Assembly (NCBI RefSeq): GCF_016793485.1
Contig: NZ_JAEULZ010000020.1
Location: forward strand, 1 to 48,620
From: Mesorhizobium sp.
GTDB taxonomy: Bacteria; Pseudomonadota; Alphaproteobacteria; Rhizobiales; Rhizobiaceae
DNA: 48,620 nt
Direction of reading: 5' to 3'
The notes beneath the pieces were generated by a model that was not told where the DNA came from, did not search any database, and saw only the letters and a program-made list of their open reading frames with translations. Below, piece by piece: positions 38,044 to 43,866 of this stretch (position 1 is its first letter; the number at the start of each line of letters is the position of its first letter). The position numbers and the translations under genes are program-made.

Positions 38044-39102
38044 TCATTTCCTTGCCGGAAAAGCGCTTGGCGGCTTGCCTGTCGAGCCCCGTACCACCAG
38101 TTCGACCGGCATCACGACCTGCCTTGGCGATCCATTTTCCAGCACCATTTCTGCCGCCAGCCGCGCCTTGCCGACGATATCGTGTGCAACCGTCGTCAGT
38201 GACGGCATCGTGCGCGCCGCTTCCGCCGTTCCGTCGAAGCCGACCACCGAGACTTGTCCGGGCACATCGATGCCGCGTCGCCGCGCCTCATCGAGCACCG
38301 TAATCGCCTGCCAGTCCGACATCGTCATGATTGCGGTCGCCTGCGGGCAATGATCGAAGACAGCAGATCCCGCATGGGGGTCGCCTGGCGTTGTTTCGAT
38401 GACCGGCACGTCCGCGATCGACAAGGAGGCTTCCGCCAGAGCCGCCTCGAAACCTTGCAGGCGCTGGTGGTCCAGCGCGAAACCCGCCATCAGCGCACGA
38501 TCGGTATGGCCAGGCCTATGCACGATCGCCGGCCCGACAGTGCGCCTGATCGACAGGATGGCGAAGCGCTTGTGGCCCAACCTCGCCAGATGGCGCACGG
38601 CAGCGATCGCACCGCTGCGCGCGTCGATCCTGATGGAGTTCACGTCTGCCCCAGCGTCGCTTTCAAGGATCGCGAAGGGCAGTCGTCGCCGCTTCACGGA
38701 GGCAACAACATCTATGTCGACGACATTGCCAAGGATGAAACCATCCACCAATGCCTCGCGAATGCTTGCCATCCGGGTTTCGTCGGTCCCGTTGACGAGG
38801 CTGAGCGTTGCTCCGGCAGCGTCGCACGCGCTCGCGGCACCCATAAGCAATTCGCGCCCATAAGGGCTGCGCACCATTTCAGCGATCGCATAGGCGCCCG
38901 GCGGCATGAAGCCGATCGCGTTGAACCGGCCTTCCTTGAGCAGGCGTCCCTTCGGGTCGGGGCCACCGTAGCCGAGCGCACGCGCCGCAGCCTCGACGCG
39001 CTCGCGCAGTTCCGGCCGCACCAGTTCGGGCCGGTTGAAGACATTGGAGACGGTGCCGCGTGAAACGCCTGCGGCCAGGCCTACGTCATCAAGGGTTGGC
39101 AT
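38044..39102 (-). CDS. LacI-family transcriptional repressor
   Basis: A 352-residue LacI-type regulator: N-terminal helix-turn-helix TLDDVGLAAGVSRGTVSNVF (residues 3-22), a hinge with an unusual linker (YGGPDPKGRLLKEGRF in place of the common ARSLRTG pattern), and a periplasmic-binding-like effector domain from about residue 63. It is divergent from the MoaF-like gene, with two identical palindromic operators between them, the proximal one 36 bases before its own ATG, so it probably represses both itself and the divergent pair. The effector is presumably a small sugar-like molecule by family, but there is no transporter or catabolic gene nearby. Confidence 0.93.
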   Translation of the reverse strand: MPTLDDVGLAAGVSRGTVSNVFNRPELVRPELRERVEAAARALGYGGPDPKGRLLKEGRFNAIGFMPPGAYAIAEMVRSPYGRELLMGAASACDAAGATLSLVNGTDETRMASIREALVDGFILGNVVDIDVVASVKRRRLPFAILESDAGADVNSIRIDARSGAIAAVRHLARLGHKRFAILSIRRTVGPAIVHRPGHTDRALMAGFALDHQRLQGFEAALAEASLSIADVPVIETTPGDPHAGSAVFDHCPQATAIMTMSDWQAITVLDEARRRGIDVPGQVSVVGFDGTAEAARTMPSLTTVAHDIVGKARLAAEMVLENGSPRQVVMPVELVVRGSTGKPPSAFPARK

Positions 39103-39137
39103 TCGTCACCTGTCATCCGGATGTCTTAGGCGAAATT

Positions 39138-39151
39138 TTGGAGCGCTCCAA
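39138..39151. promoter_or_regulatory. LacI operator O1 (perfect palindrome)
   Basis: TTGGAGCGCTCCAA, a perfect 14-base palindrome with the central CG of LacI-family sites. It lies between the lacI start (36 bases) and the -35 of the divergent promoter, 53 bases centre-to-centre from O2, about five helical turns. Confidence 0.88.
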
Positions 39152-39159
39152 GATTTTTA

Positions 39160-39188
39160 TTGACTTCGGCCTGAAAACGCTCAATTCT
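39160..39188 (+). promoter_or_regulatory. Promoter of the MoaF-like gene pair
   Basis: TTGACT (39160-39165) and AATTCT (39183-39188) are 17 bases apart. The predicted start point near 39195 falls inside operator O2, while O1 lies just upstream of the -35, a layout expected for repression. Confidence 0.6.
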
Positions 39189-39189
39189 G

Positions 39190-39205
39190 TTTGGAGCGCT
39201 CCAAA
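39190..39205. promoter_or_regulatory. LacI operator O2 (perfect palindrome)
   Basis: TTTGGAGCGCTCCAAA, a perfect 16-base palindrome with the same core as O1, covering the predicted transcription start of the MoaF-like gene. Confidence 0.88.
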
Positions 39206-39296
39206 TTGATATATGGTTCGGGCGCTCCCGAAATTCGCATGCATTGATTCTTGCTTGATTGAGGATGCGTGGCTTGGCCGCGCACAAGGAGGATTT

Positions 39297-39623
39297 ATGG
39301 AAGCGACCAACACCTCGCCGGCCAGGCTTGTCGGCAAGACCTTCGATTGCGACTTTGGTTCGTTCGTGCCGCGACTGACATTCCGGACTGCTAACGAAAT
39401 CCGCGTTCAAGCCAAGCTCGGCGACATCAACATCGATCAGACCGTGCAGGCGGATGTTTCGGGTGTGCGGCCTGACGTCTTCATCGTGAGCTGGGTGGAA
39501 GACAACGGCAATTTCGTCGTCCAGTTGCAGGACCACGCAAACGGCGTGGTTCACAATCACGCTCGGCTTGCCGACGGCCAAGTCTTCCGCGCCGAGGGCC
39601 GGCTACAAGCAGTCGACGCCTGA
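39297..39623 (+). CDS. MoaF-like small beta-rich protein
   Basis: A 108-residue soluble protein, probably a small beta barrel (lipocalin/MoaF-like): GKTFDCDFGSFVPRLTF, alternating strands, then VFIVSWVEDNGNFVVQLQD, the family's characteristic SWxE...D pattern, and VVHNHARL. The start is the ATG at 39297 with an ideal AAGGAGG; an upstream in-frame ATG at 39213 lies before it and has no such site. It is the first gene of a two-gene unit under LacI control. MoaF function is not established even in other bacteria, so only a ligand-binding role can be suggested. Confidence 0.75.
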   Translation: MEATNTSPARLVGKTFDCDFGSFVPRLTFRTANEIRVQAKLGDINIDQTVQADVSGVRPDVFIVSWVEDNGNFVVQLQDHANGVVHNHARLADGQVFRAEGRLQAVDA

Positions 39624-39669
39624 ACCATCCGCACCGAACGACTTCCTTCGACCACCCAGGGAGGACCTG

Positions 39670-40107
39670 ATGGAAATCGCTTACGAGAGCCATCTGCTTG
39701 CACGCATTCTCCTGACCGTCGCAACGCTCGGCTACGGTCTTGTCACCATGAAAGCGGACTTCAACGCGACCCATGCCACCAACCCGCTATGGACACCGCA
39801 CGCGCGGTTCCATGTCGTCTGGCAGGTTCTGAGCTATTCCGGTGTCGGCCTGATCGCGTTGGGGTTGATCTGGATCGGCGGGCCGATGCAGACAGAGCGA
39901 CTTTACCTTGCCGGGCTGCTGGGCGTCGCGATGTACGGCGCATTCTTTGCCGCGCTGTTTTCGCGACCGATCTATGGCGGGCTGCTTTATGACGACAACG
40001 GCTACCCGCCCTTCAAGGCGCCGGTCGGCCCCGGCAAATGGGACGTCAACGTCACCGCTTTCACGCTGATGACGACCGTCCTGATGCTTGGACTGATCGC
40101 CATCTAG
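39670..40107 (+). CDS. Four-helix membrane protein of unknown function
   Basis: A 145-residue membrane protein with four hydrophobic segments (residues ~7-25, 44-65, 75-97, 122-142). The loop with THATNPLWTPHARFHVVWQ holds three His in a cytosolic or periplasmic turn, which might bind a metal or ligand. I do not recognise the family. Start is the ATG at 39670 with GGAGGACC; the longer in-frame alternative overlaps the preceding gene. It follows the MoaF-like gene by 46 bases and should be co-transcribed. Its 3' end overlaps the convergent SRPBCC gene by four bases. Confidence 0.75.
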   Translation: MEIAYESHLLARILLTVATLGYGLVTMKADFNATHATNPLWTPHARFHVVWQVLSYSGVGLIALGLIWIGGPMQTERLYLAGLLGVAMYGAFFAALFSRPIYGGLLYDDNGYPPFKAPVGPGKWDVNVTAFTLMTTVLMLGLIAI

Positions 40108-40583
40108 CCCTTGCGCTCGACCAGCATCGCGAGCTGGTCGGCAACGGTGCCCCAGCCGTCGAAGAAACCCAGTTCGGCATGCCTGTTCCGTTCGGCTGGG
40201 CTGTTGTGCATGGCATAACCGACATAGTTGGTTCCTTCGGGGTGCTCCTCAAACGAGAAGATACCCGTCATGAAAGGCCGCGCGGACGGACGCCAGCCTG
40301 CAGTCAGCGCATCAGTGAAGACGATCCGCCTCAGCGGCTCGACGGCGAGCACGCAAACATTCATGTGCACCGAGAAATTGCCGTCACCGTTCTCGTCAAA
40401 CTCGGTCACGAAAGCGCCGCCGGGCTTCAACTCAAGAGCCACGACCCGCGCCTTCGACGGTGCCGGCACCCACCATTGTTCAAGTTTCCTTGGGTCGGTC
40501 CAGGCATCCCAGACCTTCGCCACGGGTGCCCTGATGATGCGGGAAATCTTCAGATCGAGATCGGGATTTTCTGAAAAGGTCAT
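40104..40583 (-). CDS. SRPBCC/AHSA1-like domain protein
   Basis: A 159-residue protein of the AHSA1-like SRPBCC (START) superfamily: an N-terminal ISRIIRAPVAKVWDAWTDP, then WWVPAPSKARVVALELKPGG, and a C-terminal helix with GTVADQLAMLVERKG lining the hydrophobic cavity. The ATG at 40583 overlaps the stop of the ArsR-type gene (ATGA), so the two are co-translated. ArsR/SRPBCC pairs are common in actinobacteria and proteobacteria, but their ligand is unknown. Confidence 0.9.
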   Translation of the reverse strand: MTFSENPDLDLKISRIIRAPVAKVWDAWTDPRKLEQWWVPAPSKARVVALELKPGGAFVTEFDENGDGNFSVHMNVCVLAVEPLRRIVFTDALTAGWRPSARPFMTGIFSFEEHPEGTNYVGYAMHNSPAERNRHAELGFFDGWGTVADQLAMLVERKG

Positions 40584-40993: not shown

Positions 40994-41020
40994 AACCGTA
41001 CCGTACCGTACGGTACGGTT
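40994..41020 (+). repeat. Perfect 12-bp palindrome built of ACCGT pentamers, followed by a T run
   Basis: AACCGTACCGTA (40994-41005), loop CCG, TACGGTACGGTT (41009-41020), then T to 41025. It has the form of a rho-independent terminator on the plus strand, but no plus-strand gene ends near it; it lies just upstream of the ilvD -35. Confidence 0.85.
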
Positions 41021-41023
41021 TTT

Positions 41024-41052
41024 TTGTTGCCGCATAGATGCTTTCGTATTAA
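41024..41052 (+). promoter_or_regulatory. Candidate ilvD promoter
   Basis: TTGTTG (41024-41029) and TATTAA (41047-41052) are separated by 17 bases, placing the start near 41059 and a 53-base leader before the ilvD ATG. Confidence 0.55.
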
Positions 41053-42954: not shown

Positions 42955-43866
42955 TCAGGCCATCCCTTTCAGGACCGCGACCAGCAGGTCGCGGTCGGCC
43001 GTCAGGCCCTTGTAGTCGAGTTGCTCTGCTTCCAACTCCATCAACTGGTCTGCAAAGGACGTGGCAAGCGCAGCGCGGTCGGGGTGGTTTTTCAAAGTTG
43101 ACAGAGGGTCCAGATAAATCCGGATCGTGAACAGGATGTCGCCCGACACAGGCAGCTTCCTGAGGGTCTGCCGTTCTATGCGGATGAATGCACGGGCTGC
43201 TGATTCAACGTCGGGAAACCGGTTTGGCGGCGCAGCCTTCCGAATGTTGCGTTCGTCGTTGGACATCGGCCTGTAAAGCGCATCGCCAAGCTGTATCGAC
43301 CAATTAACCCTGACCACCGGTTGGACGACCTGCAGCTTGTCGAACATGCGGTCGATCAATTCGGCATTCCGCGTACCAGGACCGAAACCGGGCACCGGTC
43401 CGTGGATGGACGACATTGGCTTTCCGAATTTCTCGGTCAACGCCCAAGAGGAAGGGAAGCAGAGCGCGCCAGCGACGAGCCGCCAGCCATCATCGCCCCT
43501 GCGCATCAGGATAAGGTCCTCCTGCACAAGAAGCGAAGCCTTGCGCAGCGGCGACAGATCAGTCGCCTCCCGCTCCGGAATGCCGGTGATCACGACGTCC
43601 TCGCCACACCGTCTGTACCGGTCGGGAAAGCGAACAGGCAGATGATCGAGCAGCAGTCCGAGTACCTCGGCCTGCGCTTCTTCCGTACCCTCTTCGGCGA
43701 CAAAGACGCGGTCAGCATGTTCAGCGTAAAGACGCCTCTTCTCCGCGAGCTGAGAATCGAACGTATCGTCGACTTCGGTCCATTCCTTCAGGTCCAGCGG
43801 CTTGAGCCCGATGGCGAATGGCTTGGAAGAGCCGTCGTAAGGTGTATGGATGGGAAGCTGCGTCAA
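42955..43866 (-). CDS. Heme-dependent oxidative N-demethylase-like protein (DUF3445)
   Basis: A 303-residue protein of the DUF3445/HODM family, whose studied members are heme enzymes that remove a methyl group from dimethylamine-type substrates with oxygen. Signatures: RFPDRYRRCGEDVVITG, LVQEDLILMRR, LCFPSSWALTEKFGKP and RVNWSIQLGD, then FTIRIYLDPLS near the end. The heme contact His cannot be fixed by eye. The start is a TTG at 43866 behind an ideal GGAGGG; no ATG is usable. No tetrahydrofolate or other demethylation gene is nearby, so the substrate remains open. Convergent with ilvD. Confidence 0.85.
   Translation of the reverse strand: MTQLPIHTPYDGSSKPFAIGLKPLDLKEWTEVDDTFDSQLAEKRRLYAEHADRVFVAEEGTEEAQAEVLGLLLDHLPVRFPDRYRRCGEDVVITGIPEREATDLSPLRKASLLVQEDLILMRRGDDGWRLVAGALCFPSSWALTEKFGKPMSSIHGPVPGFGPGTRNAELIDRMFDKLQVVQPVVRVNWSIQLGDALYRPMSNDERNIRKAAPPNRFPDVESAARAFIRIERQTLRKLPVSGDILFTIRIYLDPLSTLKNHPDRAALATSFADQLMELEAEQLDYKGLTADRDLLVAVLKGMA

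Follow-up and report, generated by a model that had tools for sequence, protein, structure and literature searches.

The question raised by this locus is what a LacI-type regulator may control when its operators precede no recognisable sugar gene. In the 48,620 nucleotides of Mesorhizobium DNA analysed here (the window), the regulator gene (38044..39102, minus strand) codes for a protein of 352 aa possessing a LacI-family DNA-binding domain (PF00356, 45.4 bits, cut-off 27) and a periplasmic-binding-like domain (Peripla_BP_3, PF13377, 96.3 bits, cut-off 26.5). In keeping with this family, palindromic sites with a central CG lie beside its gene and are conserved in relatives. The regulator is divergent from the genes that it was proposed to control, these being on the plus strand, as a sequence-only reading of the window had described. 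Only two genes lie downstream of the promoter, namely that of a MoaF_like beta-barrel protein of 108 aa (39297..39623, plus strand; assigned by PF22036 and an AlphaFold2 model), with AGGAGG at 39287-39292, and that of a four-helix membrane protein of 145 aa (39670..40107, plus strand), preceded by GGAGG at 39660-39664 and distantly related to DUF6640 (sub-threshold PF20345 match, AlphaFold2 model). As the end of the unit at 40107 overlaps by 4 bases with a convergent AHSA1-type gene (40104-40583, minus strand), the operon is taken to be two genes long. Neither target is a recognised sugar gene and none was recognised among the close neighbours, in agreement with the earlier reading; the sugar genes that would mark a carbohydrate-utilisation LacI regulon are thus not found under these operators.

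Two features beyond the unit may be mentioned. A perfect 20-base inverted repeat, its two 10-base arms composed of ACCGT units and with a T run behind it (41000-41026), resembles a terminator and lies between arsR-type and ilvD genes. A gene resembling the alpha subunit of haem-dependent oxidative N-demethylase (42955-43866) lies near the unit here, and 11 of the 13 three-gene loci described below (L026-L034, L036, L037) have one nearby as well.

The 14-mer TTGGAGCGCTCCAA is present twice, exactly in both cases, at 39138-39151 (operator O1) and 39191-39204 (operator O2), with 53 bp from start to start, and both copies are exact in the 15 loci of the window clade and in L152. They surround a promoter with the -35 element TTGACT (39160..39165, plus strand) and the -10 element AATTCT (39183..39188, plus strand) separated by a 17-base spacer. 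The 3′ end of O1 is 8 nt from the -35 element, while O2 begins 2 nt past the -10 element and spans the predicted start, so that the layout first proposed for the two operators stands. TTGAC is retained in 15 of 15 aligned loci, and the hexamer equivalent to the -10 element is weak (GATCGT) in most of the Mesorhizobium loci. On its other side, O1 is 35 nt from the start of lacI (39102, minus strand), and a TA(G/A) is found 11 to 9 bases before it in the 15 aligned loci; in the window this corresponds to CTA on the minus strand (39127..39129), tentatively part of the lacI -10 element. Overlapping face-to-face promoters were also considered, with TTGAGC-17-AATAAA on the lacI strand, but rejected, a comparable TTGA-type pair being present only in the window and L030 among the 15 loci.

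The exact 14-mer occurs at no third place in the 5.21 Mb genome of the strain. Allowing one mismatch, only O1 and O2 are found, the reversed control likewise giving two matches, and with up to two mismatches there are 21 matches versus 21 for the reversed control. A wider regulon in this genome was for that reason dropped and a single target region is claimed. It is the exact pair of operators that is above chance, not single near-matches: a pattern search for such a pair in 394 genomes of the family matched five, at one place each, with none in the reversed control. From their spacers, the five were identified as the window, G597, G062, G134 and G089, and the pair is present in two of the four genomes of the genus.

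That the two-gene unit is under a LacI switch can be put forward with high confidence. The lacI product is predicted to be a local repressor with one target region, its dimers on O1, just upstream of the -35 element, and O2, over the start, closing the promoter of the two target genes. The dimer on O2 would block the polymerase, while O1, since it both adjoins the -35 element and faces lacI, could strengthen repression and give autoregulation, autorepression of lacI being probable.

The unit is patchy in its distribution, as few genomes carry it: the membrane protein is found in five and the MoaF-like protein in nine of 199 genomes of the bacterial family (own genome included), several of these matches being distant, and the MoaF-like profile matches 10 of 397 genomes of the order at E 1e-8. 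A membrane-protein scan of the contigs of named genomes gave 59 loci. In 13 of these (L025-L037), from Mesorhizobium strains and Rhizobiaceae and Hyphomicrobiales MAGs, lacI, the moaF-like gene and the membrane-protein gene occur together, arranged as in the window; three (L025, L026, L030) are apparently the records G597, G134 and G062 and were counted once. At L028, two frames match the moaF-like protein, and the gene is possibly broken or misread. All 13 have, as the neighbour on the lacI side, a gene with Pfam saccharopine dehydrogenase domains, which we take to be homospermidine-synthase-like. A fourteenth locus, in Aestuariivirga (L038), has the lacI (49%) and membrane-protein (69%) genes without a moaF-like gene, and no match to the window-type LacI or MoaF was reported for the remaining 45 loci. 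The adjacency of the three genes and their operators, on which the initial proposal depended, is therefore kept in relatives. The controlled pair itself is conserved as neighbours in the 13 loci, but it is not obligate, each gene being found without the other beside a related lacI.

The exact TTGGAGCGCTCCAA pair is present, 53-56 bp apart, in all 16 examined loci with a close lacI beside a moaF-like gene (the window, L025-L037, G089 and Rhizobium leguminosarum). Viewed from the regulator, it is present in 15 of 16 lacI upstream regions (the window, L025-L037, G089 and L038), the exception being L038, which has two TTGAAGCGCTTCAA sites with a spacing of 55. Among the 15, the spacing is 53 in two loci, 54 in three, 55 in two and 56 in eight; the sixteenth exact pair, on plasmid p1 of R. 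leguminosarum GLR17, has a spacing of 55. In the alignment of 15 loci, of which 10 are Mesorhizobium so that conservation is inflated, columns above 1 bit number 10 of the 15 before O1 and 11 of the first 20 after it, compared with three of the 24 before O2 and one of the 15 after it. The O1 side is therefore conserved beyond the site itself.

In all 16 loci the spacing comes near to five turns of the helix, which is in line with a single protein assembly that bridges O1 and O2 and bends the promoter between them into a loop, as known from the lac operon. Such a loop would be very short, however, and the distance between the sites varies by 3 bp, roughly a third of a helical turn. Furthermore, the window regulator lacks the C-terminal tail by which E. 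coli LacI forms a tetramer, so that two dimers are likelier than a loop, and looping is considered improbable.

The inducer of the repressor can be approached through its pocket. R197 and D274, the residues that make the two main sugar contacts in E. coli LacI, are kept as R214 and D290 in 15 of 15 clade rows, and a small inducer, which would release the repressor, is on these grounds probably hydroxylated. Sister clades differ at several pocket positions, so their inducers probably differ as well. The R and D contacts would also suit an ordinary sugar- or cyclitol-responsive LacI switch, the targets of which handle a sugar-like compound while the catabolic genes are elsewhere in the genome, and in a comparative analysis by Ravcheev et al. 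(2014; PMC4052901) carbohydrate metabolism is regulated by 176 of the 182 LacI groups for which a pathway was assigned. Against such a switch are the want of recognised sugar genes in the unit or close by, the clade's partner genes, which code for small proteins and not sugar enzymes, the lack of any exact operator elsewhere in the genome, and the replacement of N246, D149 and Q248 of E. coli LacI by S262, E147 and W264 in 15 of 15 clade rows; it is rated as rather unlikely. The same study (PMC4052901) describes local LacI regulons that the window resembles in its divergent regulator, even palindrome with a central CG, few targets and probable autoregulation, which is reported for 72% of LacI-TFs. 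The window differs from these in the spacing of its sites, 53-56 bp against peaks at 13, 22 and 32 bp, and in having orphan, non-sugar-like proteins as targets.

Both targets had been called uncharacterised. For the barrel this needs amending, as its score of 69 bits (cut-off 27) makes it a member of the named Pfam family MoaF_like (PF22036), here under LacI control. The AlphaFold2 model of the barrel (13 rows) has a mean pLDDT of 91.7. A fold search with it gave 5hal (E 1.8e-6, TM 0.83) as the sole match at E <= 0.001; the MoaF structure 4q51 has a TM of 0.82, and many phenolic acid decarboxylases, for example 2p8g, are matched with TM of about 0.60-0.80 at E of about 1e-3 to 3e-2. The barrel thus shares the fold of phenolic acid decarboxylases and MoaF (TM by query length about 0.60-0.82), as well as an invariant glutamate in the motif SW(V/T)E, of which W and E are invariant in 13 rows, but is only about 10-25% identical to them in the fold alignments. 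Glu64 of the decarboxylase lies in an SWTE-like stretch and may be the counterpart of the motif glutamate. Glu64 is given as the acid/base of phenolic acid decarboxylase in a passage of PMC10116590. Membership of the barrel in the decarboxylase family is ruled out, since PF05870 is not among its Pfam matches; PF05870 has no match in the strain's own genome either, with the B. subtilis and L. lactis control genomes positive. When solved structures were searched by sequence, the barrel protein by itself had no match and the barrel profile had a chance-level agglutinin match alone (E 0.63). Literature searches found no paper on MoaF-like and none joining the decarboxylase with MoaF, and searches for LacI with MoaF, MoaF with lipocalin and the operator core string gave nothing related, as judged from the listing. 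By eye, distant MoaF_like genes (L093-L103) are often near genes resembling isochorismatase-type hydrolases or glyoxalase-fold proteins.

The membrane protein, by contrast with the barrel, resembles its family only by a weak profile match, PF20345 (DUF6640) scoring 22.7 bits over residues 17-97, below the curated cut-off of 27, and it is not assigned to the family; no paper was found in a literature search for DUF6640. Its AlphaFold2 model (36 rows, mean pLDDT 90.3) has helices at residues 2-30, 43-68, 74-102 and 126-144. The invariant residues D30, N32, T34, H35, T37, N38, P39, W41, H44, R46 and H48, together with G104, D108, N110, G111, D125 and N127, mostly lie within or beside the loops that connect helices 1 and 2 and helices 3 and 4, and hence on one membrane face. 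A sequence search of solved structures gave one chance-level match (E 0.4), and a fold search with the model found no solved fold at E <= 0.001; the best fold match, a pectin methylesterase inhibitor (TM about 0.5), was taken as a generic four-helix bundle. A relative with 48% identity lies unannotated on a plasmid record labelled Klebsiella pneumoniae (LR890720.1, 24245-24613), an unexpected host.

Relatives of the membrane protein suggest where the unit may belong. Among the 46 other membrane-protein loci (L038-L083), tblastn detected an FAD aromatic ring hydroxylase in 30, many of which are related MAGs (Parvibaculum, Rhodobiaceae), an FAH-type hydrolase in 27, an extradiol-like protein in four and hpaH plus hpaI in two. 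The 23 loci used for comparison, of which 11 surround distant MoaF_like genes and 12 sister lacI genes, had none of these; they were chosen for convenience and not at random and include the L038 locus again as L140. An operon of ring hydroxylase, SDR, DUF6640-like membrane protein and FAH-type hydrolase genes with a divergent TetR gene was seen to recur, being complete in this order in L054, L063, L064 and L070 and partial elsewhere. Membrane-protein relatives adjoin hpaH and an hpaI-like gene in L046, L052, L153 and L154. In Oryzicola (L046) these next genes score 356.9 bits for hpaH (cut-off 351.5) and 364.3 for the hpaI-like aldolase (cut-off 368.8), and L052, a Competibacteraceae MAG, has the same gene order. 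ABC transporter genes lie near several of the relatives, and the sensing or transport role first suggested for the unit may still apply; on Agrobacterium and Thioclava plasmids the hpaH/hpaI-type neighbours are beside branched-chain-type ABC transporter genes, and another Thioclava plasmid locus (L156) is without such hpaH/hpaI-type neighbours. In R. leguminosarum, a hydroxycinnamate operon starts about 1.9 kb beyond the switch unit, with a MarR gene between, and codes for a CoA ligase, a p-hydroxycinnamoyl-CoA hydratase/lyase (467.7 bits, cut-off 276), an alcohol dehydrogenase and an annotated coniferyl aldehyde dehydrogenase.

While the targets had been said to belong to no nameable pathway, the barrel fold and the gene surroundings of the relatives point, tentatively, to the metabolism of aromatic or phenolic acids. 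The induced proteins would form an accessory unit for the metabolism of phenolic or other aromatic acids, in which the barrel may bind or convert the compound and the membrane protein may offer a conserved polar site on one membrane face. Several observations count against an aromatic role. No ring hydroxylase, FAH hydrolase, extradiol-like protein, hpaH or hpaI was detected by tblastn in the 13 three-gene loci or the window; the hydroxycinnamate operon of R. leguminosarum has its own nearby MarR gene and no operator, no further copy being found in 16 kb that include it; and the barrel is not a PF05870 decarboxylase. An aromatic or phenolic role of the targets is accordingly held at a little under even chances, and the whole explanation, in which a locally acting LacI protein represses an accessory unit that serves phenolic or aromatic metabolism, at even chances; it is the best one available. 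Alternatively, the role of the targets could be protection from quinones or other reactive compounds instead of feeding a catabolic pathway, as distant MoaF_like genes (28-38% identical; L094, L098, L099) are near glyoxalase-fold- or hydrolase-like proteins. The relation of these three is distant, however, their neighbours were judged by eye and the membrane-protein relatives point instead to catabolic operons, which leaves protection only a slim chance. The locus is a genuine, closely conserved LacI switch over orphan genes, familiar in its mode of regulation and unusual in its targets, with a concrete lead to function; the pathway is tentative. For two protein families of no known function it offers a regulon that is clearly delimited and open to testing. 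Relatives of the membrane protein are met repeatedly among aromatic-degradation genes of alpha- and gammaproteobacteria, as well as on plasmids of Agrobacterium and Thioclava, so a role established here would help to annotate many genomes.

LacI matches at E 1e-50 or better are present in 53 of the 397 genomes of the order (own included), and 12 places from 10 of the 53 were surveyed, most of the distant sites being found by eye. In a tree, the 15 window-clade rows are grouped with support 100/100, while the fork to L140/L038 and L141/L142 is open. Going by the aligned sequences, the sites and the recognition helix of the more distant LacI proteins change together. The segment SRGTVS of the 15 window-clade rows occurs with TTGGAGC, SLGTAS with TTGAAGC (L140, the L038 locus), and SRSTAS with TTGGATC (L141, with degenerate copies in L142). 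SQGTAS is mostly found with TTGAATC-type half sites (L150, with variants in L147, L149 and L151, one half site of L151 being TTGGATC) and SHGTAS with mixed TTGGATC/TTGAATC halves (L145, L146). At the fourth base of the site, as read from these pairings, R goes with G, L or Q mostly with A, and H is mixed; the first recognition-helix position of LacI reads such a base. TTGAATCGGTTCAA was seen by eye in L143, and no site was noted by eye in L144 and L148, where gene starts may be miscalled. These proteins form a small natural series of LacI regulators in which DNA sites and target genes have changed together.

The second target beside the window-clade lacI is the membrane protein in 14 loci (the window, L025-L037) and a protein of about 130 aa, tentatively labelled cupin-like from its sequence, in two Rhizobiaceae, G089 and R. 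leguminosarum. Members of this family (73-83% identical) are also encoded at L141, by the divergent gene, which follows two sites of the type found there, and at L142, by the third gene of the divergent row. A Pfam scan of three of the proteins gave no match at E 1, and an NCBIfam scan of three likewise gave none; the members are at L020:721-1125, L141:8014-8400, L142:4904-5293, L152:8409-8795 and L157:7001-7384, and the fourth homologue, on a Microvirga plasmid, has no window-type lacI or operator within 14 kb. In Aestuariivirga, the membrane-protein gene is followed by genes for a small exported-looking protein (43% to its L142 counterpart) and a SnoaL-type protein. As the partners differ between loci, the regulator and promoter layout persist while the small target genes change. 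A broader reading would be that this LacI clade has left sugar control and runs a modular orphan small-protein regulon for phenylpropanoid or aromatic acid metabolism, its MoaF_like, DUF6640-like and cupin-like targets being exchanged while operators and recognition helices co-change, and that bacterial ring-cleavage pathways have, in the DUF6640-like family, an integral-membrane component that has gone unrecognised; taken jointly, these proposals are somewhat doubtful. In one sister LacI clade (L145, L146, L147, L149, L150, L151), three operator-like sites of the TTGAATC/TTGGATC type are present upstream of lacI and precede small genes of unknown role, L145 being from the window's own genus.
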